DNA from: an uncultured Saprospiraceae bacterium
Lineage (GTDB): Bacteria > Bacteroidota > Bacteroidia > Chitinophagales > Saprospiraceae
Assembly (NCBI GenBank): GCA_937959375.1
Contig: CALGLS010000016.1
Location: 1-36,283, forward strand
Direction: 5' to 3'
Length of the DNA: 36,283 nucleotides
The position numbers were made by a program, and so were the translations under genes. This document shows positions 227 to 34,441 of this stretch, piece after piece. Within the stretch, counting starts at the first letter, position 1. Each line of letters begins with the position of its first letter. The notes beneath the pieces were generated by a model that had not been told where the DNA came from, made no database searches, and saw only the letters and a program-made list of their open reading frames with translations.

Positions 227-2167
227 TTAATCCCTCACCAGATTTAATTTCTGATTAGCAATTAGTGCATTTTTATCATTCACTGTCAGGTAATAAATTC
301 CAGCATTTAGCCCTAAGCTTGACAGATCAATAAATGACTCTCTTTCATTTCTAGCATCAATTTCTGTAATAAAAACTTGCTTACCGGTTGTATTGGTAAT
401 AATCATCTGAATACTTTCTTTCCCAAAATCTCCTATCCATCTAACATTAATTCCGCGACTAGCGACTACCGGATTTGGGAAAACATTAATTTTTGCTTCT
501 TCCATTTTGATTATCGCTGTTACTATTTTCGAATATTCAAATTGACCGTCAAAGTCAACTTGCTTTAATCGATAATAGTTTTCACCAAAATAAGGTTTAT
601 CATGTTCGTAGGTATAATATTGGATTTCATCAGTAGTTCCATTACCTGTTACATGACCTACAGGAACATAGTCTCTACCGTCCACACTGTGTTCAACAAT
701 AAAGTAATCGTTGTTTAATTCCGTTGCTGTTTCCCAAGTCAAAACGACTGCTTCATTATCTACTACTTGCGACCTAAAGCTCACCAATTCTACTGGTAAT
801 GCCGACGGATTAGGTTGTCTGGTTGACAATTGGAAAGCACCTCCTACATTATCATTAAAAGCATACATTCGAATGTAGATATACTCGTTGGCCAAGTCTG
901 CATCATTGATTTCCAACTTAGCTCCAAATGGATTTTGACTACCAAAATAATTACAAGCAAATTGAGTTAGATTTCCACAAACTCCAGTGTAGGCAGTTAG
1001 TACTGGTTTTACATCGTAGGTTTCATCTACTTTAGTATCAATAACCAACTCTCCATTTGAAGGCACCTGTACATAAAACCAAATGTCTTTACCTGTAAAC
1101 AGTCCACAGGTAGGTTCCGCTCCATCATCTTGCGAGTACTGATTGGTATAAGGCGTGTACCTATCGATGTCTGAGATATCCTTTAACTCAATGGCATCCG
1201 AACAGACATCAAGACGAGGTTCTACAACTAACATATCGAAGGTTCCTCCCCATTTATCATTATCCCCAAAAACTTGAATCATGATGTCTTCTCCAGCTAG
1301 ATCAGCATCGTCAATAATTACTTCTCCTCCAGCATCTCTTGAACCATAATCGCTACACTCATAAAGCGTCATTGCATCATAGTTTTCGCCTTCGACAGTA
1401 TAAACTACAACAACAGGATTAATGGTTCCTGGGTTCGTTTCAACAACCAACTTACCACTCATCGGTACTTCTGATTTAAACCAAAGGTCACCTCCTTTGT
1501 ACTTTCCACATTCAGGGTTATTGTAACCATATGTTTCACTTGTAGATTCAGTACTAAAAGTTTGAAACTCGAATGTACATTGCTTATCACTCAATTTTAA
1601 TGCTGAGGAAGGGCCATCGTTAGGCGGTGCAACATCTTCAAGAATAGAGGCCCTTATTTGAAACTCTCCTCCTACGTTAGATCCATACCTAAACACTCGA
1701 ACATAAATATATTCTCCAGCAAGATCTATATCCTGAATTCGAATTAGACTATTTATATTCCCTTCTTGAAGACCTATTTCTGAACAAACATATTCTGTCA
1801 AATTACTAGGAGTTCCTGTGTAAGCAGACATCACTACTTTAGGATTTGTATTAGTTTTAGCTTCAATCTGCATATTCCCAGAAGCTGGTACAATCATTTT
1901 AATCCATACGTCTGCCCCACTATATGAGCCACAAGAAGGAAGTGGTTGCACCAAAGAATTGGAAGCTAACTCATTTGTAAATGTATGCATTTGATTGCTA
2001 AACGCTACAGGAATTTCTATAGCATTTGTTGGATTATCATTAATGGGTTGTGCATAACTAACAGTTGTCGCTAATATAAAAAATAGCGCTAAGCAGATTG
2101 TTTTTTGGATTGCTCCGATGATGTAATAATTGTTTTCTTTTCTAGTATTTGGTTTGGCTTTACTCAT
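227..2167 (-). CDS. Secreted T9SS type A cargo with three PPC-like repeats (paralogue 1)
   Basis: Predicted secreted or surface-anchored protein of 646 aa, exported by Sec and then by the type IX secretion system. Residues 1-39 form a long signal peptide ending SYA before QPIND. Three repeats of about 140 aa follow (roughly 41-178, 179-318 and 319-450). Each contains a [D/N]xxxxAIxL start, a CGxYxGxDxWF-like core, a Cys pair and an [AG]xxIxI[RQ]xF/Y tail, resembling pre-peptidase C-terminal (PPC) or jelly-roll modules. Residues 455-560 form a fibronectin-like linker (ALPVELVSF, YYRLKQVDFDG) usual in T9SS proteins. Residues 562-646 form a type A sorting domain (NVFPNP, GIYYLTV, final KLNLVRD). 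No catalytic motif is seen, so an adhesin, matrix or binding role is inference. It is the first of three tandem paralogues, and its C-terminal third is almost identical to that of the next one. Transcription is probably monocistronic from the sigma-54-type site at 2298-2343. Confidence 0.85.
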   Translation of the reverse strand: MSKAKPNTRKENNYYIIGAIQKTICLALFFILATTVSYAQPINDNPTNAIEIPVAFSNQMHTFTNELASNSLVQPLPSCGSYSGADVWIKMIVPASGNMQIEAKTNTNPKVVMSAYTGTPSNLTEYVCSEIGLQEGNINSLIRIQDIDLAGEYIYVRVFRYGSNVGGEFQIRASILEDVAPPNDGPSSALKLSDKQCTFEFQTFSTESTSETYGYNNPECGKYKGGDLWFKSEVPMSGKLVVETNPGTINPVVVVYTVEGENYDAMTLYECSDYGSRDAGGEVIIDDADLAGEDIMIQVFGDNDKWGGTFDMLVVEPRLDVCSDAIELKDISDIDRYTPYTNQYSQDDGAEPTCGLFTGKDIWFYVQVPSNGELVIDTKVDETYDVKPVLTAYTGVCGNLTQFACNYFGSQNPFGAKLEINDADLANEYIYIRMYAFNDNVGGAFQLSTRQPNPSALPVELVSFRSQVVDNEAVVLTWETATELNNDYFIVEHSVDGRDYVPVGHVTGNGTTDEIQYYTYEHDKPYFGENYYRLKQVDFDGQFEYSKIVTAIIKMEEAKINVFPNPVVASRGINVRWIGDFGKESIQMIITNTTGKQVFITEIDARNERESFIDLSSLGLNAGIYYLTVNDKNALIANQKLNLVRD

Positions 2168-2297
2168 AAAAAAATTCTAATTGAATTATTATCGGGGAGT
2201 AACTTTTTGATTACAGGTTAGTAAAGGGGGAAGAAAAAAGAGGGGAAAAATAGTTATCTCACTTAAAGTAAAATGGACTATAGACTTTTACTTCATG

Positions 2298-2343
2298 AGC
2301 CAAAAATATGCCACCTAAGCTATTAGAAATAAAAAGTGTGACA
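2298..2343 (-). promoter_or_regulatory. Sigma-54-type promoter with upstream TGTCAC box, paralogue 1
   Basis: Read on the minus strand, TGGCATATTTTTGGC has GG and GC separated by exactly 10 bases (GC complement at 2299-2300, GG complement at 2311-2312), the geometry of a -24/-12 sigma-54 promoter. A TGTCAC box (GTGACA on the plus strand, 2338-2343) lies 26 bases from the GG. Transcription would start near 2287, giving a leader of about 120 nt that carries three C-runs (2194-2197, 2226-2230, 2242-2245 as G on the plus strand). The rest of 2168-2550 holds only the terminator of the next gene. Confidence 0.6.
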
Positions 2344-2476
2344 GTTCATCCTCGCTGAAAAGTAAAAAAAGTAACTGCTGCCAAGGGTTTTCATGATTAA
2401 ATAACCTTAAATTTACATTTGTTAAAATTTAGTCCCAGAAAATAAGTAAATGCTCATAACTAAAAAATTGTCTCAA

Positions 2477-2515
2477 ACAAAAAAGAGTTAGTAACTCTCC
2501 TACGATTACTAACTC
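2477..2515 (-). terminator. Intrinsic terminator of paralogue 2
   Basis: GAGTTAGTAA at 2485-2494 pairs perfectly with TTACTAACTC at 2506-2515 (11-nt loop). On the minus strand the stem is followed by a T-run (A-run at 2478-2484 on the plus strand). It is 36 bases beyond the stop codon of the gene at 2551-4503 and separates it from paralogue 1. Confidence 0.8.
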
Positions 2516-2550
2516 CTTTTGACAAAAAATTAATTATGTAACTAAAACAT

Positions 2551-4503
2551 TTAATCTCTCACCAGATTCAATTTCTGATTAGCAATCAATGCATTTTTAT
2601 CATTCACTGTCAAGTAATAAATCCCAGCATTTAGCCCTAAGCTTGAAAGATCAATAAACGATTCTCTTTCATTTCGAGCATCAATTTCTGTAACAAATAC
2701 TTGCTTACCTGTTGTATTGGTAATAATCATCTGAATATTTTCTTTTCCAAAATCTCCAATCCACCTAACATTGATTCCGCGACTAGCAACTACCGGATTT
2801 GGGAAAACATTAATTTTTGCTTCTTCCATTTTAATGATTGCTGTTACTATATTCGAGTATTCAAATTGACCATCAAAATCTACTTGCTTTAGTCGGTAAT
2901 AGTTTTCACCAAAATAAGGCTTTACATGCTCGTAAGTATAGTACTGAATCTCATCAGTCGTTCCATTACCTGTTATATGTCCAACTGGAACATAATTTTT
3001 GCCATCCACGCTATGCTCAACAATGAAGTAATCATTGTTCAATTCAGTTGCCGTTTCCCAAGTCAGTATTACTGCTTCGTTATCTACAACCTGTGATCTA
3101 AAACTTACTAGTTCTACTGGTAGTGCAGAAGGATTTGGTTGTCTGGTTGACATTTGAAATACGCCTCCATTAGGATCACTGAAAGCATACATTCTAATGT
3201 AAATGTATTCGTTAGCTAGGTCTGCATCATTGATTGTTAATTTAGATGCGAATGCGTTTCCACTCCCAAATAAGTTACAATCATATTGAGTTAAGTTTCC
3301 ACAGGTTCCAGTAAAAGCTGAAAGTACTGGTTTAACATCGTAGGTAGCATCTACTTTAGAATCGATTACTAATTCTCCGTTTGCAGGTATTTGAACATAA
3401 AACCAAATGTCTTTATCAATGAACCCTCCACAAGTTGGTTCTGTTCCGTTTTGTTCAGCGTATTGATTGGTATAAGGAATATACTTGTCTATTGCTGAAA
3501 TATCTCTTAATTCAATGGCATCAGAACATACATCTAGCCGTGGTTCCATAACAACAATGTCGAAGGTACCTCCCCAATAATTATAATCTGCAAAAACCTG
3601 AATCATAATCTCTGTACCTGCAAGATCTGCATCATCTATAATAATTTCACCTCCTCTGTCTCTTTTCCCATTAATGCTACAACTATATTCTTCCATCGCT
3701 TCATAATCACCAGAAGCAAGATTTTCTTCGTCAATAGAATAAGCTACTACAACAGGATCCATTGAGCCTGGGTTTGTTTCAATCACTAATTTACCACTCA
3801 TCGGTACTTCTGCCCTGAACCAAACATCTCCTCCTTCATAATTACCACAGGATGGTTCATTAAAGCTTTCAGTTTCAGTAGCTGATACCGTTGTAAATGT
3901 TTGAAATGTAAATGTACATCCATCATCATTTAAAACAACGGCATTTGCAGGATTGTTATTTGAAGGTGCTATTCCATCTAAGAAATAGGCTGCCAACTCA
4001 AATTGTCCTCCTATGCTTGATCCATATCTAAATACTCGAACATAGATCTCCTCCCCTCCAATCGTTATATCATTTATTCTTAGAGAACTACTCTCATCAG
4101 TGTTTGATGCATCTTCCGAACAAGCATATTCTGAAAAACTACCTGGGCTACCTGTATAAACCGAAAAAACTACTTTAGGATTTATACTGGTCTTTGTTTT
4201 AATTGCCATGTGCCCAGATGATGGCACCGTCATTTTAAACCATACATCCGCTCCTGCATATGATCCACAAGAAGGAAGTGGCTGAACTAAGGAATTGGTA
4301 GCAAGTTCATTGGTAAACGTAAAGTAAACGTCACTAGGTGATACATCAAAAAGGATTGCTCCAGATGGTTTATCATTAATTGGTTGCGCATAGCTAATAA
4401 CAGTACCTAGAAAAACGAATAACGATAAGGCTATCACTTTTTTTATTGATCCGAGGATCAAAGGTTTTATTATTTTTTTAAAGTTTGGTTTAATTTTAAT
4501 CAT
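2551..4503 (-). CDS. Secreted T9SS type A cargo with three PPC-like repeats (paralogue 2)
   Basis: A 650-aa paralogue of the neighbouring 646-aa protein with the same architecture: signal peptide to about residue 39 (SYA before QPIND), three PPC-like repeats with CGxYxGxDVWF cores and paired cysteines, the ALPVELVSF/YYRLKQVDFDG linker and a type A sorting domain. From NPSALPVELVSF to the end (about 194 residues) I count only 8 differences from paralogue 1, whereas the second repeat differs at roughly 40% of positions. This fits partial gene conversion or selection on the sorting region. The second repeat carries a small insertion (around ENLASGDYEAM) relative to paralogue 1. No enzymatic motif is visible. 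It has its own terminator and sigma-54-type promoter, so it is probably transcribed alone. Confidence 0.85.
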   Translation of the reverse strand: MIKIKPNFKKIIKPLILGSIKKVIALSLFVFLGTVISYAQPINDKPSGAILFDVSPSDVYFTFTNELATNSLVQPLPSCGSYAGADVWFKMTVPSSGHMAIKTKTSINPKVVFSVYTGSPGSFSEYACSEDASNTDESSSLRINDITIGGEEIYVRVFRYGSSIGGQFELAAYFLDGIAPSNNNPANAVVLNDDGCTFTFQTFTTVSATETESFNEPSCGNYEGGDVWFRAEVPMSGKLVIETNPGSMDPVVVAYSIDEENLASGDYEAMEEYSCSINGKRDRGGEIIIDDADLAGTEIMIQVFADYNYWGGTFDIVVMEPRLDVCSDAIELRDISAIDKYIPYTNQYAEQNGTEPTCGGFIDKDIWFYVQIPANGELVIDSKVDATYDVKPVLSAFTGTCGNLTQYDCNLFGSGNAFASKLTINDADLANEYIYIRMYAFSDPNGGVFQMSTRQPNPSALPVELVSFRSQVVDNEAVILTWETATELNNDYFIVEHSVDGKNYVPVGHITGNGTTDEIQYYTYEHVKPYFGENYYRLKQVDFDGQFEYSNIVTAIIKMEEAKINVFPNPVVASRGINVRWIGDFGKENIQMIITNTTGKQVFVTEIDARNERESFIDLSSLGLNAGIYYLTVNDKNALIANQKLNLVRD

Positions 4504-4635
4504 GGTGTTTATTATTGGAATACAATCAATGAATAATTGAGGGAAATCAACCAGGGGATTAAATGGAGGATGTAAGAGAGAGGAAAGAACCGGGGGTTTC
4601 CAAAAATGGAATGGTTCGACTTACAATATTTGTCA

Positions 4636-4681
4636 AGCCAAAAATATGCCAAGTTAGTATTAGAAGGCTAAAATCGTGACA
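4636..4681 (-). promoter_or_regulatory. Sigma-54-type promoter with upstream TGTCAC box, paralogue 2
   Basis: Minus-strand TTGGCATATTTTTGGC gives GG-N10-GC (GC complement at 4637-4638, GG complement at 4649-4650). The TGTCAC box is GTGACA at 4676-4681 on the plus strand, again 26 bases from the GG. The predicted start near 4625 leaves a leader of about 122 nt with C-runs (plus-strand G at 4541-4543, 4554-4557, 4592-4596). Outside these boxes the intergenic sequence is only weakly similar to that of paralogue 1. The rest of 4504-4892 contains the terminator of paralogue 3 and nothing else I recognise. Confidence 0.6.
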
Positions 4682-4820
4682 GAAGAAACAGCGAAAAAAA
4701 AATAAAAAGTGAACATTGGTAAGGGTTTTCATCTTCAAATCAAGACAAATGCTTACCTATAAAGTGCTTATAAAACTCACCTAATTTGTGTCGAAAATAA
4801 CTTTATTATCATTTTTTTAC

Positions 4821-4854
4821 AAAAAAAAGTGCTTATGCGACCAAGCATAAGCAC
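4821..4854 (-). terminator. Intrinsic terminator of paralogue 3
   Basis: GTGCTTATGC (4829-4838) pairs perfectly with GCATAAGCAC (4845-4854) around a 6-nt loop. On the minus strand the stem is followed by eight T (A-run at 4821-4828). It lies just beyond the stop of the gene at 4893-6866. Confidence 0.9.
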
Positions 4855-4892
4855 CGTTTATTTTTATTACAAATAAAAAACAAGTCACAATT

Positions 4893-6866
4893 CTAGTCTT
4901 TTAACAAGTTTAATTTTTGATGGGTAATCAATGCATTCTTATCACTAATGGTTAGATAATAATGACCTGCATCTAAATTAAGTTTTGAAAAATCGATATA
5001 TACTTCCCGCTGATTCTTAATGTCAACAGACTGTTTTACAACTTGTCTTCCAACCGAATTGGTTATACTGAGTTGAACGACTTCTTTACCAAAGTCTCCA
5101 TTCCAACGAATGCTAATACCTCCTGTAGCTAATGCGGGATTAGGATACACGTTGATTTTTGACTCTTCCATTTTTATAACACCATGTATCACTCTAGAAT
5201 ATTCATACTGACCATCGAAGTCAACTTGCTTTAGTCGGTAGTAGTTTTCACCAAAGAACGGTTCGTCATGAACAAAGCTATAGGTCTGTCGTTCTGAGGT
5301 CGTCCCCTTTCCTTTAATGTGTGTAACCGGTGTATAATCTTTTCCATCTGTACTATGCTCAACGATAAAGTAATCGTTATTCAACTCAGATGCGGTTTCC
5401 CAATACAAGGCGACTTCTTCATTATTAATCACCTCAGATTTGAAAGCAACCAAATCCACAGGCAATGCTGCAGGCTGCGTGGTTGACATCTCAAAACGGC
5501 CACCTACTGCATCCTCATAAGCGTACATTCTCACATAGATATATTGGTTCGAAAGATCCGAATCATTGATGTCGATTTTTGCTCCAAAAGGATTATCTAG
5601 ACTTCCGAAAAAATCACATGCATACTGAGTAAGATTTCCACAAGACCCTGTATAAGCAGTAAGAACAGGTTTTACACCATAGGTTTCATCTACCTTCGTA
5701 TCTATTACGAGCTTTCCATTTGATGGAACTCGCATGAGAAACCAAATATCTTTTCCATTAAAGACCCCACAGGTAGGCTCAGTTCCATTAACAGTTGCAT
5801 ACTGATTGGTGTAGCCAATATATTTTTCGACGAGTGCAGCATCGGCGAGTTCAATCGCATCTTCACATACATCCTGCTGAGGTTCCACTATTGCTATGTC
5901 AAAAGTCCCCTCTCCTCCTACCTGCGTACTAATAGCTCGAATACGGATGTTTTTCCCAGCTAGATTTAAATCATCAATTATTACTTCTCCTCCAGTATCA
6001 ATCATACCATTTTTGCTAAAGGCATATTCTTCTAATTCTCCACAATTACCTTTATATACAACTATCGCCGGTATAATAGTACCTGGGTTTGTTTCTATAT
6101 TTAGCTTCCCACTAGCTGGCACAGTTGCCATAAACCAAATATCTTTTACATCACAACCTACACATTCCACAGGGATATTTAGATCAGTTGTTGCGGAAGC
6201 ATCTACTGTAGAAAAAGATTGAAAATCAAAGGATCCTTTTTCTGTCGTTAATTCTATCGCCTGACTGCATTTGTCATTTGCAACATTAATTGACTGAAAA
6301 TTATATACGCTAATATCAAAAGTTCCTCCTACTGTTGAACCAAATCGGAATACTCTTATATAAATTTCATCTCCAGCCTCCACATCAGCATCATCCAAAT
6401 TAGGGTTAAGTTTAACACGACTACTAACACCTAAATCAGTTGATGGTGTACTTTTAGAGCATTTGATTTCTTCTAGATTATTGCAATTATTTTTGTAGAT
6501 ACTCACTACTACTTTAGGATTCAAAGTAGTGGCTAAATCAATAGCAATCTTATTTTCGGGCATTACTATTTTAAACCAAACATCCGCTCCTTGGTATTGT
6601 CCACATTCGGGTGCCGATACATTGGATCCAGTTGCTAATTCATTGGTATAGGTCGCATATGTTCGCTCTGACATAACATCTAATGCAATTGCTCCAGAGC
6701 AATCATCATTAATAGGTTGTGCAAAAGCGGTTGAAGTTCCCATCAAAAGAAACACTACAATTAGTGTAATGCTGTGGATTGATTTAATCATCAATTTAGT
6801 GTTTAGGTAACTTTCGTAAAAAGTTAATGCGCCAATGGCTTTTTTGTTCTGAATTGTTTTGCTCAT
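4893..6866 (-). CDS. Secreted T9SS type A cargo with three PPC-like repeats (paralogue 3)
   Basis: The 657-aa and most divergent member of the tandem triplet. Order: N-terminal extension, signal peptide ending AFA before QPINDDC (about residues 26-49), three PPC-like repeats with CGxYxGADVWF-type cores, the ALPVDLVAF linker and a type A sorting domain (NVYPNP, GHYYLTI, final KLNLLKD). The second repeat has CVGCDVKDIWF instead of CGxYxGxDxWF. The start is uncertain. I keep the upstream ATG because its MSK opening matches paralogue 1, but the ATG at 6791 (MIKSIHS) would give a more normal signal peptide. Sequence similarity to the other two is even along the protein, unlike the pair 1/2. Function unknown; surface binding or matrix is a guess. 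Preceded by its own sigma-54-type promoter. Confidence 0.83.
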   Translation of the reverse strand: MSKTIQNKKAIGALTFYESYLNTKLMIKSIHSITLIVVFLLMGTSTAFAQPINDDCSGAIALDVMSERTYATYTNELATGSNVSAPECGQYQGADVWFKIVMPENKIAIDLATTLNPKVVVSIYKNNCNNLEEIKCSKSTPSTDLGVSSRVKLNPNLDDADVEAGDEIYIRVFRFGSTVGGTFDISVYNFQSINVANDKCSQAIELTTEKGSFDFQSFSTVDASATTDLNIPVECVGCDVKDIWFMATVPASGKLNIETNPGTIIPAIVVYKGNCGELEEYAFSKNGMIDTGGEVIIDDLNLAGKNIRIRAISTQVGGEGTFDIAIVEPQQDVCEDAIELADAALVEKYIGYTNQYATVNGTEPTCGVFNGKDIWFLMRVPSNGKLVIDTKVDETYGVKPVLTAYTGSCGNLTQYACDFFGSLDNPFGAKIDINDSDLSNQYIYVRMYAYEDAVGGRFEMSTTQPAALPVDLVAFKSEVINNEEVALYWETASELNNDYFIVEHSTDGKDYTPVTHIKGKGTTSERQTYSFVHDEPFFGENYYRLKQVDFDGQYEYSRVIHGVIKMEESKINVYPNPALATGGISIRWNGDFGKEVVQLSITNSVGRQVVKQSVDIKNQREVYIDFSKLNLDAGHYYLTISDKNALITHQKLNLLKD

Positions 6867-6991
6867 GATAAATGGTCTTAATTAAAAAAAAACAAGGGGA
6901 GCAAATAAATAGGAGGAGTAATTGTTTGTGGGAGGAGAATAAAACAATCGTGCCATAGAAAATAGCACTAGTGATTTTATACTTTTTAAGT

Positions 6992-7037
6992 AGCGAAAAT
7001 AATGCCAAGCAAGTAGCACATTCCAATAAGTGTGACA
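6992..7037 (-). promoter_or_regulatory. Sigma-54-type promoter with upstream TGTCAC box, paralogue 3
   Basis: Minus-strand TTGGCATTATTTTCGC keeps GG-N10-GC (GC complement 6993-6994, GG complement 7005-7006). The GTGACA box at 7032-7037 is again 26 bases from the GG, the same spacing as in both other paralogues although the surrounding sequence differs. The predicted start is near 6981 and the leader about 115 nt, with one CCCC run (plus-strand G at 6896-6899). The rest of 6867-7225 holds only the subtilase terminator. Confidence 0.55.
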
Positions 7038-7065
7038 TGCAAAATAATGCAAAAATCAAATTAGT

Positions 7066-7111
7066 ACCAATAAAAACAGGATGTTCTGATATGGAATCAG
7101 AACATCCTGTT
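7066..7111 (-). terminator. Intrinsic terminator of the subtilase gene
   Basis: A perfect 16-bp stem (7075-7090 with 7096-7111, 5-nt loop) made of AACAGGATGTTCTGAT and its complement. On the minus strand it is followed by TTTTATTGG. It lies about 115 bases after the stop of the gene at 7226-9091 and about 30 bases before the TGTCAC box of the next promoter. Confidence 0.8.
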
Positions 7112-7225
7112 ATATGTTAAAATCAATGATTTTTGACGAAAGTGTTCAATGTAGAGAGCCTCTTTGCCTCATACATCTCTGATTTTAGAAGATAGTTAAA
7201 TCTACAGACATCCTATAAAATCTAA

Positions 7226-9091
7226 TTACTTCAAATCTTTAATTGCTCGAATGAAGCCTTTCACGTCTTTTGCTAGCATTCTTTTTTGCAATGCTTGAGC
7301 GTCCGCTTTTCGTGAAAAAGCGCCAACAACTATTTTATAAACGGTACGACCATCTAACTCGTTGATACTTACAATTATCGGTTCACTAAACATATTCTGA
7401 AGCTTTTCAGCTTGAATTAGAACATTTCCATATTCTGCGAAAGCACCAATTTGCACTCCAAAGCCTTTCGCCTCTTGTTTGGCCACATTAAATCTAAAAA
7501 TTCCACGTCCGGTAGAAATCGTATCTCCAACTTCAGGTTCTGGATCTGCCACGCCATCTCTCATTCGAATTGCTTCGGCCACAGCCTTATCTGCGTTGAT
7601 TCGTCCATGACCATATTTTTTAGAATGCCCGTTGACATATTCAGAAGGCGAACCAATTTTATCTGCTGTTTTTGTGATGATTTTTTTAACTTCTGCTGCG
7701 GTCAATTCTGGATTTACCGAAAGGATAAGCGCACAAATTCCAGCTACTAATGGACAAGAACTAGAAGTTCCACCAAAATGTTTGTAGCGATCACCTCTTG
7801 ACTTTCCATCTCGCCAATAGCGAAAATCTCCGGTTTCCCATGACACACCTTCATCCCACCAAGCTCGTGCAGCCGTAATTGGCCAATCACCATTAGAAGG
7901 GGCACAGATGGTTACCTCTCTTCCACGGTTAGAGTAAGACGCGTGTTCATCTTTACTTGTACATGCAGCTACTGCGATAACATCAGGATGTGCAGAATAG
8001 AAACTTACAAAATCAAGATCATCGTTACCAACTGCATATATAATGATGCAACCTTTTCCGTTTCGTCCTTTACGTGCTGCTTTAGAGATGGCCTCTTCTT
8101 TAAGTGGGCTTAGCGCAAATGCTGGATCGGTTGTTCCCCAACTGCAACTAATGATATCAGCTCCATTGTCGATACAGTAATCAAACATTTGTTCTGTTGC
8201 CCGAAGGCTAAAAGATGTACCACTAACAGGCATAAACTTAGCGTTAGGTGCAGCCCCAACAATACCAGTTCCATTACTTGCAGCGACAGCGACACTTGCG
8301 CATGGCGTACCATGTGTAAAGCGAGAATCTCCTTGCTCCAGTTCACTTGAATTGGTCCAAAGATCAAATGGTTTGTGTACTTTATCCTTGAGATCGGGGT
8401 GCGAGAGATCGAATCCGTTATCGACTACTGCCACAACTATTGAAGGCGATCCTAGGTTGCCAAGTCGTTTCCATGCGTCTACTACTTTTGCATCAGCTCC
8501 TCTTTTTATTGGCCAATTCGCATCTATAATATTTCCATTATTTTCAAGGTGCCATTGATGATCTACTAAGGTATCTATAGGTTCATCAAAGTCGTATTCA
8601 TCAACGAAGGTGTCGATATCAGGTTCAGCAACCTTAACTAAAGAAGTATCTTGAAGCCATTGAGCGACTTTAAGTGGGTTAGGGGAATTTTTGGTAACAC
8701 GTGCCACTACCTGCGTATCGCTACGTCGCTCCACTAATTCGAGTTTATACTCATCAAGCGCCAAATGCTGTTCTTCTTTACTCGTTCCATCTTGGAAAAT
8801 GATGTAGATCTCACCAGTGGGAACTAGCGGTCTGCTGCTGGCACCTTCTATATAATAAACATGGGTACCAACGTCAACTTCCTTTTTCTTTCGGACCTCA
8901 TCCAGTTTATTATCTAATGAATTGCTTCCTTTGTCGAGGGTGACAATATTAAATCCGCCAAGATTTTTAAACACTTCTTTCTTGACGTAATTTTTATCTG
9001 CAATTGATTTTTTTGATTTGATACCAACAAAACGGCCACTTTTCTTTAAAGTGACTTCTCCTTTGCCGCTTCTAATTTTAATCTTGCTCAT
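7226..9091 (-). CDS. Subtilisin-like serine peptidase (S8) with C-terminal SPOR domain
   Basis: Predicted serine endopeptidase of 621 aa. Residues about 90-165 look like a fervidolysin-type inhibitory prodomain (GEIYIIFQDGT and following). The catalytic domain spans about 170-510 with D224 (VAVVDNGFDLSHPDL), H260 (HGTPCASVA), oxyanion N356 (YAVGND) and S443 (GGTSSSCPLVAG). Residues about 545-621 (GFGVQIGAFAEYGN, YKIVVGAFSRKADAQAL) match a SPOR domain, which in other proteins binds denuded peptidoglycan. No signal peptide or membrane segment is visible, because the protein opens with a basic polar stretch (MSKIKIRSGKGEVTLKK), and no T9SS sorting domain is present. Export route and location are therefore unclear. 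An upstream start inside 9092-9318 would not add a clear signal sequence. It stands alone between divergent promoters and its own terminator. The peptidase assignment is secure; a role in processing the neighbouring cargo is speculation. Confidence 0.88.
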   Translation of the reverse strand: MSKIKIRSGKGEVTLKKSGRFVGIKSKKSIADKNYVKKEVFKNLGGFNIVTLDKGSNSLDNKLDEVRKKKEVDVGTHVYYIEGASSRPLVPTGEIYIIFQDGTSKEEQHLALDEYKLELVERRSDTQVVARVTKNSPNPLKVAQWLQDTSLVKVAEPDIDTFVDEYDFDEPIDTLVDHQWHLENNGNIIDANWPIKRGADAKVVDAWKRLGNLGSPSIVVAVVDNGFDLSHPDLKDKVHKPFDLWTNSSELEQGDSRFTHGTPCASVAVAASNGTGIVGAAPNAKFMPVSGTSFSLRATEQMFDYCIDNGADIISCSWGTTDPAFALSPLKEEAISKAARKGRNGKGCIIIYAVGNDDLDFVSFYSAHPDVIAVAACTSKDEHASYSNRGREVTICAPSNGDWPITAARAWWDEGVSWETGDFRYWRDGKSRGDRYKHFGGTSSSCPLVAGICALILSVNPELTAAEVKKIITKTADKIGSPSEYVNGHSKKYGHGRINADKAVAEAIRMRDGVADPEPEVGDTISTGRGIFRFNVAKQEAKGFGVQIGAFAEYGNVLIQAEKLQNMFSEPIIVSINELDGRTVYKIVVGAFSRKADAQALQKRMLAKDVKGFIRAIKDLK

Positions 9092-9464: not shown

Positions 9465-9869
9465 ATGAAACATCAAAACAACTCCGAGCAGCTGTCCCAG
9501 CTGTCTCCTCAACTCATTATTAAGGACGTATATTCTATCATCGATTCTCGTATTCAATACATTGAATATCAAGCACATTGTCGATTGAGGAATAGCATCA
9601 AAAACAGTGTACAAGTATCTACAGCTAAAACAGCTATGGGTTCAAATAGTGATACTTCAACTATGCTTGCGAATAACTTTGATCAAATGCTAAGTTTTGT
9701 AAGTGGCTTAGAAACACCTCTAAAGCTTTTGCAGATATTGAAGACCTGGTTAAGAGAAGATAATCTTGCTTTGATCATGAGTTTGCTTTACAACAATACC
9801 TATCTCAAATACTCAGAGGATCACCTTGAACAAATGCTAAAAGAAGAAAGAGTAGAAATTTTAGCTTAA
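9465..9869 (+). CDS. Hypothetical protein, 134 aa
   Basis: I do not recognise a family. The protein is soluble, largely helical by composition, has no signal peptide or membrane segment, and has a Gln/Ser-rich N-terminus. It is preceded by a good promoter and followed 164 bases later by a histidine kinase gene on the same strand, then by a receiver-like gene, so a regulatory role is possible only by association. No paired Cys/His motif, helix-turn-helix or HPt signature (HxxKG) is visible. An imperfect AT-rich hairpin follows the stop at about 9872-9920, with a T-rich tail, so it may be transcribed separately from the kinase. Confidence 0.6.
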   Translation: MKHQNNSEQLSQLSPQLIIKDVYSIIDSRIQYIEYQAHCRLRNSIKNSVQVSTAKTAMGSNSDTSTMLANNFDQMLSFVSGLETPLKLLQILKTWLREDNLALIMSLLYNNTYLKYSEDHLEQMLKEERVEILA

Positions 9870-10033
9870 AAATTTAATTTGGAATAAGCTAGAGTATTCT
9901 TAGCTAATTCAAATTTCTACTTTTTGTTTCATTGTTAATTTATCCATCCGTTGCAACCGCTTTGCTTTTGTATCGTATCAAATTACGATTCAAAAATCAG
10001 AGTAATCCTCCAACAAATCAAAGACATTAATTC

Positions 10034-10807
10034 ATGCAAAAATCTATGCTTTTTAAAACTCAGACCAGAAGATTTGAAGACGACTTGGATGAGAAGATCC
10101 GAGAACTCGAAAAAGATACAGAGCAACTATCACAACTCAATACGAATGTGCATGACATCGTAAATTCGGCTGCACACAATCTCCGAACTTCTCTTGTTGT
10201 AATAAAAGCTTATTCTAATTTGCTAATGCACTATGATGGTGAAGAGAAACGAGAAGCGCTAGATCACATGAAGAACTCTGCATTAAAGATGGAGCGCATT
10301 GTCAATCGAATGATTGAGCTCACAGATATACAACGCAATGAGGAATTTACGGAGCAAATGCTCAATTTCGATGAAATCGTTGAGGAGGTAAAGCTACATT
10401 TGGCAGATGATATTCAAGTAACTGAGCCAAAGTTTACCTATACCTATGACATTGAAAACATTCATTATAACAAACTCAGCTTATTCACTATTCTTTTCAA
10501 TCTAATAAGCAATTCAATTTTATATCGAAGCGATGAACCATTGCACATTGATATCAGAACGAGGAGAGAAGATGGTTTTGTAGTACTTAGCGTAACTGAC
10601 AACGGCAAAGGCATTGATTTAAATCGTGACTTACAACGATTATTTAAACCCTTCACAAGAGTTACGATAGAAAATGATGGCTTGGGTACTGGATTATTCC
10701 TCATCCGATCTATTGTAGAGAAGAACGGTGGCAAAATTAAAATTGACTCCTTACCAAACACAGGAACAACGGTACAAATATTTTTAACGCCATCTGTAGA
10801 ATTCTAA
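10034..10807 (+). CDS. Soluble HNLR-type sensor histidine kinase
   Basis: Cytoplasmic histidine kinase of 257 aa, expected to autophosphorylate on His and pass phosphate to a receiver Asp. Residues 10-45 form a charged coiled coil without sensor domain or membrane helix. The HisKA box is SAAHNLRTS with H48; Asn after the His is common in Bacteroidota kinases. The ATPase core has an N-box (NLISNSILYR, N156 and N160), G1 (VTDNGKGID, D189-G193), F-box (LFKPF, F204) and G2 (GLGTGLFLI, G216-G220). All catalytic motifs look intact. It is short because the input module is absent, so the signal probably arrives through a partner protein. The flanking 134-aa and receiver-like proteins are candidates. 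The start is the first Met of the frame; Met5 is an alternative. Confidence 0.88.
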   Translation: MQKSMLFKTQTRRFEDDLDEKIRELEKDTEQLSQLNTNVHDIVNSAAHNLRTSLVVIKAYSNLLMHYDGEEKREALDHMKNSALKMERIVNRMIELTDIQRNEEFTEQMLNFDEIVEEVKLHLADDIQVTEPKFTYTYDIENIHYNKLSLFTILFNLISNSILYRSDEPLHIDIRTRREDGFVVLSVTDNGKGIDLNRDLQRLFKPFTRVTIENDGLGTGLFLIRSIVEKNGGKIKIDSLPNTGTTVQIFLTPSVEF

Positions 10808-33203: not shown

Positions 33204-34226
33204 TTAAAAATTAGGACAGCGAATTTTAGTTGGCCTTTTATTACCCCAAGAATCAAGGATATGGATGACTGAAAATTCTGGTCCACCAGCTCCTCTACTT
33301 GCTTTTGTTAAACTTGAAATATTAATATCGTATGTCAAACTTAAGAAGGTATTTTTAAAATCCATTCTTACAGCTGCTACTATGGCATCCGTTCCGAGAT
33401 AATTTTTCTCAGCGTACCACCTTAACCATCCTCCAAAATATAATGCGGATGCTGAGGTTGAATTCCGATTACTATTCATAGAGGTTTTGTATTTCCAATA
33501 CGAACCTATAGTAATTTCTCTATGTGGTCCTTGATCCATAAAAATGAAACTCGGCATTACAGTATTCTTGCGATTAACTTCTACATCTGCACCACCATGA
33601 AAAACATATTTTCGGTAAGCAACTAAACTTTCACTCAACTCATCATCCTTATAAAAAGAAACATCTGGCCGATTAAGATGCGAAGCAGAAACCCCTAAAT
33701 AGATATTGGAATAGCGGTCGAAGTTGTAAAACCAAGCTAAGCCTGTATTGATATCAACATATCTGATTTTATCCGGCGCATTTCCTGGTTCTGTATCGAA
33801 AGCAACAATTTTAGAAAAATCTACTCTATTACTAATCATTCCACTTTGTAAACCAAAAGCAAAGTAATGGCTACCCAAAGTTTTCAAAACTGATACACTT
33901 CCTAAAACGGCAGTGGTAGTAAAGTCAAGATCTCCTGCCTTATCTGAAATGATATTCAAACCTCCGGCAATAATGTCCTCTCGATTAAATTCAAACATTC
34001 GCATGTCCACAGAACCTGCAAAAGTCCTATATCCTTTTGTCAATCCATTCCATTGGCCTCTGGAGTTACCTATAAAGCGAACCTGACCGTTAAAAAGCCC
34101 TGTCATAGCAGGATTCAATATGGTTGGCGATGCATGGATATGAGAAAAATGCACGTCCTGTGAAAACAGCGAAGCTGGTAACATACAAAGTATGCTCAGC
34201 AAAAGCTGGTATACAATTTTATTCAT
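33204..34226 (-). CDS. PorP/SprF family type IX secretion system outer-membrane protein
   Basis: A 340-aa outer-membrane beta-barrel protein with signal peptide (MNKIVYQLLLSILCMLPASLFS) and the family hallmark right after it: HFSHIHASPTILNPAMTGLFNG, then RFIGNSRGQW. It continues with GGLNIISDKAGDLDFTTTAVLGSVSVLKTLG, typical for PorP/SprF. Members work with T9SS type B cargo such as SprB; the type B cargo gene lies directly upstream on the same strand, so the two probably form a cargo/partner pair. It has its own terminator and a good sigma-54-type promoter. Gene symbol withheld because the clade has many paralogues. Confidence 0.92.
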   Translation of the reverse strand: MNKIVYQLLLSILCMLPASLFSQDVHFSHIHASPTILNPAMTGLFNGQVRFIGNSRGQWNGLTKGYRTFAGSVDMRMFEFNREDIIAGGLNIISDKAGDLDFTTTAVLGSVSVLKTLGSHYFAFGLQSGMISNRVDFSKIVAFDTEPGNAPDKIRYVDINTGLAWFYNFDRYSNIYLGVSASHLNRPDVSFYKDDELSESLVAYRKYVFHGGADVEVNRKNTVMPSFIFMDQGPHREITIGSYWKYKTSMNSNRNSTSASALYFGGWLRWYAEKNYLGTDAIVAAVRMDFKNTFLSLTYDINISSLTKASRGAGGPEFSVIHILDSWGNKRPTKIRCPNF

Positions 34227-34407: not shown

Positions 34408-34425
34408 AAGTACACTTATTAAAAG

Positions 34426-34441
34426 GCAAACCTCATGCCAA
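34426..34441 (-). promoter_or_regulatory. Strong sigma-54-type promoter of the PorP/SprF gene
   Basis: Minus-strand TTGGCATGAGGTTTGC fits the -24/-12 consensus (TTGGCACG-N4-TTGC) with a single T for C change; GC complement at 34426-34427, GG complement at 34438-34439. The start would be near 34414, giving a leader of about 190 nt with five C-runs. It lies directly after the T-run of the upstream gene's terminator. No TGTCAC box was found at the spacing of the other sites, since that place is occupied by the terminator stem. Confidence 0.6.

Follow-up and report, generated by a model that had tools for sequence, protein, structure and literature searches.

Three tandem genes on the minus strand of a contig from an uncultured Saprospiraceae bacterium are preceded by the same arrangement of promoter signals, and the question that they raise is which sigma factor reads these promoters and what the TGTCAC box at their upstream end is for. 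The window, by which we mean the whole stretch of DNA analysed (36,283 nt, contig CALGLS010000016.1), belongs to an incomplete Saprospiraceae assembly of 4.98 Mb that is 72% complete. The original prediction, made from the window alone, proposed a sigma-54-type promoter and a TGTCAC box at invariant spacing before each gene, and considered the box as a possible mark of a T9SS-cargo regulon.

The paralogues and their composite promoters

We considered the following features, in which the predicted starts were placed from the -24/-12 element, 12 bases past the GC:

227-2167, minus strand: paralogue 1, 646 aa, GBD_T9SS_assoc repeats and type A T9SS sorting domain
2551-4503, minus strand: paralogue 2, 650 aa, architecture as paralogue 1, 73% identical to paralogue 1
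4893-6866, minus strand: paralogue 3, 657 aa, architecture as paralogue 1, 53% identical to paralogues 1 and 2
2343-2298, minus strand: composite of promoter 1 (P1), TGTCACACTTTTTATTTCTAATAGCTTAGGTGGCATATTTTTGGCT
4681-4636, minus strand: composite of promoter 2 (P2), TGTCACGATTTTAGCCTTCTAATACTAACTTGGCATATTTTTGGCT
7037-6992, minus strand: composite of promoter 3 (P3), TGTCACACTTATTGGAATGTGCTACTTGCTTGGCATTATTTTCGCT
2338-2343, minus strand: TGTCAC box of paralogue 1, predicted -56 to -51, invariant across five promoters of two species
4676-4681, minus strand: TGTCAC box of paralogue 2
7032-7037, minus strand: TGTCAC box of paralogue 3
2298-2313, minus strand: sigma-54-type -24/-12 element of paralogue 1, TGGCATATTTTTGGCT, GG 2312-2311, GC 2300-2299, predicted start about 2287
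4636-4651, minus strand: sigma-54-type -24/-12 element of paralogue 2, TGGCATATTTTTGGCT, GG 4650-4649, predicted start about 4625
6992-7007, minus strand: sigma-54-type -24/-12 element of paralogue 3, TGGCATTATTTTCGCT, GG 7006-7005, predicted start about 6981
2168-2287, minus strand: predicted 5' leader of paralogue 1, 120 nt, G-poor and pyrimidine-rich, its start taken from the -24/-12 element
4504-4625 and 6867-6981, minus strand: predicted 5' leaders of paralogues 2 and 3
L037:3888-4000 and 6697-6813: predicted 5' leaders of the two copies of the sister species (see below)

The letters read directly at these coordinates are TGTCAC-N24-TGGCAT-N7-GC in 3/3 promoters, with the same distance from the box to the GG, and every position originally given for TGTCAC, for the GG and for the minus-strand GG-N10-GC with its TGGCAT was exact. 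By itself TGTCAC is no more frequent in the window than chance predicts (12 occurrences seen vs 14.8 expected), and hence the weight of the argument rests on the composite and on its spacing.

The C-terminal sorting domain of type A scores over the curated cut-off with both PF18962 and TIGR04183, and the products are predicted to be T9SS-sorted secreted surface proteins; the AlphaFold model has a mean pLDDT of 59.5. The three paralogues adjoin the gene (7226-9091) of an S8 protease that has a SPOR domain. A pair of genes (9465-10807) lies divergent from the protease and the cargo cluster, one for a protein of 134 aa that has no known domain and the other for a soluble histidine kinase that lacks a sensor domain, and ORFs of equal sizes and arrangement (134 and 258 aa) adjoin the cluster of the sister species. 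This pair is a candidate for a possible regulator.

Among the named relatives, an uncultured Saprospiraceae bacterium of the same genus (locus L037, contig CAKZUK010000188.1, which is contig C188 of genome G001), here called the sister species, is the closest. Two genes of the family are found there: one, of 657 aa, is the orthologue of paralogue 3 and 73% identical to it, the other is a shorter copy (369 aa), and the exact composite lies before both (from 3832 and from 6641). From the short copy (6814-7923) a middle part is missing, approximately residues 180-450 of paralogue 3, but the promoter and the two ends of the protein are retained. The remaining copies share only 50-53% protein identity with paralogue 3 and its orthologue, which means that there was time enough for the promoters to diverge.

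The predicted leaders agree in length across the five copies (113-122 nt). They contain 7-10% G, with TCCCC or CTCCTCC tracts, and no strong RNA fold common to the copies was found in them. In the sample of genes described below, CCCC occurs in the last 120 bases before 10/51 sorting-domain genes vs 32/360 others (p = 0.03, with the five family members counted). The interval between the protease gene and promoter 3 holds an inverted repeat, AACAGGATGTTCTGAT...ATCAGAACATCCTGTT (7060-7115), largely retained in the sister species, which is probably a terminator and occupies the place where an enhancer might lie.

Conservation of the boxes and choice of sigma factor

Aligned without gaps from the box, the five promoters of the two species agree in all 14 motif letters. 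The 24-base spacers are 29-50% identical between copies (71% for the one orthologous pair) and the flanks 30-55%. When the five promoters were aligned on the -24/-12 element, the longest invariant run upstream of it was TGTCAC itself, i.e. 6 bases, while Markov resampling of the five upstream regions gave runs of at most 4 in 20,000 trials; this test assumes independent sequences and so overstates the evidence for close pairs, and a version with four lineages reached the same maximum. In the spacers of paralogues 1 and 2 the stretch TTCTAATA recurs, displaced by one base, with the total spacing equal, which suggests compensating indels and selection on the distance.

It could be argued that the promoter was copied together with the gene, so that the match is for the most part a legacy of the copying, with constraint on the sigma-54 element alone and no present function for TGTCAC. 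Every carrier of the composite is in fact a paralogue or an orthologue of one family, and P1 and P2 retain further common stretches, e.g. ATGAAAACCCTT. We consider this account improbable, because between the deep lineages spacers and flanks are near random identity (29-50%) while TGTCAC is kept at 6/6 letters in 5/5 promoters, and because an invariant run of 6 never arose among the resamples. Since 14 letters were kept in promoters whose spacers are mostly 29-50% identical, the conservation, which is far above chance and beyond the simple memory of a duplication, is most likely due to selection on both boxes and on the distance between them. The original prediction of selection on both elements amid diverged DNA is therefore sustained, spacers being mostly near random identity with the distance kept in 5/5. 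Against this explanation as a whole it counts that a single genus, hence few lineages, lies behind the five copies.

As regards the sigma factor, GG-N10-GC, within a TGGCAY-N7-GC element, is intact in 5/5 promoters, i.e. the three of the window and the two of the sister species. The full -12 consensus TTGC is absent: T at -15, G at -13 and C at -12 are present, and at -14, where the sigma-54 consensus has T, the five copies have G, G, C, A and G. TTGC is a consensus and no requirement, and its most conserved part is GC; accordingly, the deviation at -14 lowers the quality of the match and membership is still possible. The genome of the window encodes an RpoN with activator-interacting (AID), core-binding and DNA-binding domains (on contig C324), and rpoN is encoded in the sister species too, so the genome-wide absence of this gene, which had been named beforehand as a point against the prediction, is not what we found.

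The sigma-54 activator domain gave three strong matches in the genome of the window and five in that of the sister species. Reading of their sequences gave an intact GAFTGA in L215, L216/L219 and L218/L221 and an altered one in L213 and L214/L217, and a Fis-type HTH is present in L214, L216 and L218. The altered loops, GSFTSA and GAFTDA, occur in two families of activator homologues (L213, L214, L217), and on account of these loops the proteins may not activate sigma-54.

A different reader of these promoters would be the housekeeping sigma-A of Bacteroidota acting via TATTTTTG, with the likeness to GG-N10-GC being coincidental. The -7 box of the Bacteroidota housekeeping sigma factor is TAnnTTTG, as described in PMC9723704, and it is perfect in P1 and P2. 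It is broken, however, in P3 and in both sister copies (present in 2/5), P3 and its orthologue showing a shift of one base; nor is a TTG conserved at a constant upstream place (-33), whereas GG and GC are invariant. We judged sigma-A recognition by TAnnTTTG together with a TTG approximately 17-23 bases upstream, and this is not the pattern that we observed; recognition by sigma-A thus appears quite unlikely. We also considered TGTCAC as the -35 of an extracytoplasmic sigma promoter and rejected this, as the spacer has no conserved -10. With GG-N10-GC invariant, TAnnTTTG variable, the predicted leaders alike in length and both rpoN and activators encoded, it is probable that sigma-54 promoters precede the five copies, as originally predicted for the three of the window.

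Extent of the composite

We scanned the genome of the window (5.0 Mb) for the composite and found it with zero mismatches in only these three places; with mismatches allowed, the number of matches equalled that of a reversed-pattern control. At the observed spacing it occurs only in the three promoters of the window's genome and in the two of the sister species, all of this family, and when the gap was relaxed to 10-38 bases we obtained one extra site, in the window's genome, with a shorter gap. The composite is absent from 394 other Bacteroidia genomes (395 including the window's own, the sister species being outside this sample), and none was found in the 3-kb upstream-side stretches of the nearest relatives in other genera (E 1e-60 to 1e-94).

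To these we added an upstream scan of 411 genes (about 0.8 Mb), in which sorting domains were recognised by a simple C-terminal sequence pattern. The original suggestion that TGTCAC generally marks a T9SS-cargo regulon finds a hint in this sample, as the hexamer precedes 10/51 sorting-domain genes vs 14/360 others; without the five known members the figures are 5/46 vs 14/360 (p = 0.05), to which we give little weight. The five extra TGTCAC matches, on the other hand, lack a -24/-12 element. In the sample the composite precedes none of the 46 other sorting-domain genes and none of the 360 other genes, and it is likewise absent from the 394 Bacteroidia genomes and, at the observed spacing, from the rest of both genomes. 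Matches to T9SS sorting domains number at least about 150 per genome in the window's genome and in the sister species. Enrichment before T9SS genes had been set beforehand as a test, and the scans of the genome and its relatives gave no composite outside the family. Since the composite is confined to one family of paralogues in one genus, the T9SS-cargo regulon is unsupported and in our opinion scarcely credible. The composite is a family-specific promoter variant of one genus and no general signal of secreted proteins.

Elsewhere in the window, positions 34425-34440 of the minus strand hold a sigma-54-like site, TGGCATGAGGTTTGCC, which immediately follows a terminator-like hairpin and precedes a PorP/SprF gene (33204-34226) by 214 bases. 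In the sister species the best match is 52% identical, and the 260 bases upstream of its start contain no site of this kind.

Role of the box and comparison with known systems

Other sigma-54-like sites conserved in both species, before genes for an M48-like lipoprotein, a LuxR-type response regulator and an inorganic pyrophosphatase (names read from the sequences), have no TGTCAC within 150 bases upstream, so the box is not part of sigma-54 recognition. It is also the only upstream element that we found conserved, and no conserved dyad or enhancer was found farther upstream in the five promoters. A palindrome or a PHO-box-like direct repeat around TGTCAC was looked for and rejected, none being found. 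Most activator sites are palindromic and the surroundings of TGTCAC differ in this respect, which counts, together with the deviation at -14 and the failure to find a conserved enhancer, against the explanation that we prefer. TGTCAC is most likely the recognition site of a second, predicted regulator, in register with the sigma-54 polymerase.

Taken as a whole, our explanation, which we hold with moderate confidence and which rests on comparison of sequences, is that each paralogue has its own sigma-54 (RpoN) promoter plus a TGTCAC-bound regulator at a fixed distance. Sigma-54 RNA polymerase on a -24/-12 element needs an activator for opening. The polymerase would bind TGGCAT-N7-GC and wait as a closed complex until it is opened by an ATP-driven enhancer-binding activator, which would either be bound upstream or act from solution. 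The regulator on TGTCAC (about -56 to -51) would have to sit at a fixed 25 bases from the -24 element, i.e. approximately two and a half helical turns upstream of it, and would serve as a co-activator or as a promoter-proximal limiting site, either by way of the docked polymerase or through the DNA loop that joins activator and promoter. Distance would matter if the regulator contacts the polymerase or shapes the loop. From the common promoter it would follow that the copies of the family are co-regulated.

Sigma-54 promoters normally allow a variable distance to regulator sites, and an exact distance kept amid changed DNA points to a rigid contact. In its strongest form, an undescribed Bacteroidota regulator on TGTCAC would touch the sigma-54 polymerase directly from a fixed position of about -53 and in strict dependence on distance, in contrast to the distance-tolerant enhancers of classical sigma-54 promoters; we regard this form as rather unlikely. 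We would put on the same footing the possibility that the enhancer-binding activator itself binds TGTCAC, as a close, governor-like or low-affinity site, and that there is no second regulator. Several activators are encoded in both genomes, and at the E. coli glnAp2 promoter low-affinity governor sites of NtrC lie between enhancer and promoter (PMC3870243), but the box has no inverted repeat, and one asymmetric hexamer kept at a constant distance would be an unusual site for a dimeric activator of the Fis type.

The reading with a second regulator can be compared with three systems. With glnAp2 it shares a sigma-54 promoter and regulator sites between enhancer and promoter; the governor there consists of the activator's own low-affinity sites, whereas here there is one asymmetric hexamer at one fixed distance (PMC3870243). 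In synthetic sigma-54 enhancers, a protein bound in the loop tunes the output with helical periodicity (PMC4740811), an effect of helical phase that would explain selection on exact spacing, although these are engineered E. coli constructs and no natural Bacteroidota case.

Flavobacterium psychrophilum is also a member of the Bacteroidota with -24/-12 promoters before exported and T9SS-dependent surface proteins, and with rpoN and a few enhancer-binding activators. Mapping placed its sigma-54 promoters (motif SM4) upstream of chaperone genes, of remFG-sprCDBF and of genes for exported proteins whose function is unknown, and the promoter of remFG-sprCDBF, a gliding/T9SS adhesin operon, was tested by mutation (PMC9723704). 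By this precedent, sigma-54 control of T9SS surface proteins is not new. The F. psychrophilum motif comes from mapped starts before unrelated genes, while here we have one paralogue family and sequence only, and the main text of PMC9723704 has no TGTCAC box at about -53. Among the matches listed in our search of the open-licence literature, we did not find a TGTCAC element with sigma-54 promoters in Bacteroidota. The new part is the box, specific to this family, that stands at about -56 to -51 and keeps one distance from the sigma-54 element. The composite is small and easy to mutate and offers a test case in a phylum where control by sigma-54 has received little study, and it adds a Saprospiraceae example to the link that Flavobacterium provides between sigma-54 and T9SS surface proteins.
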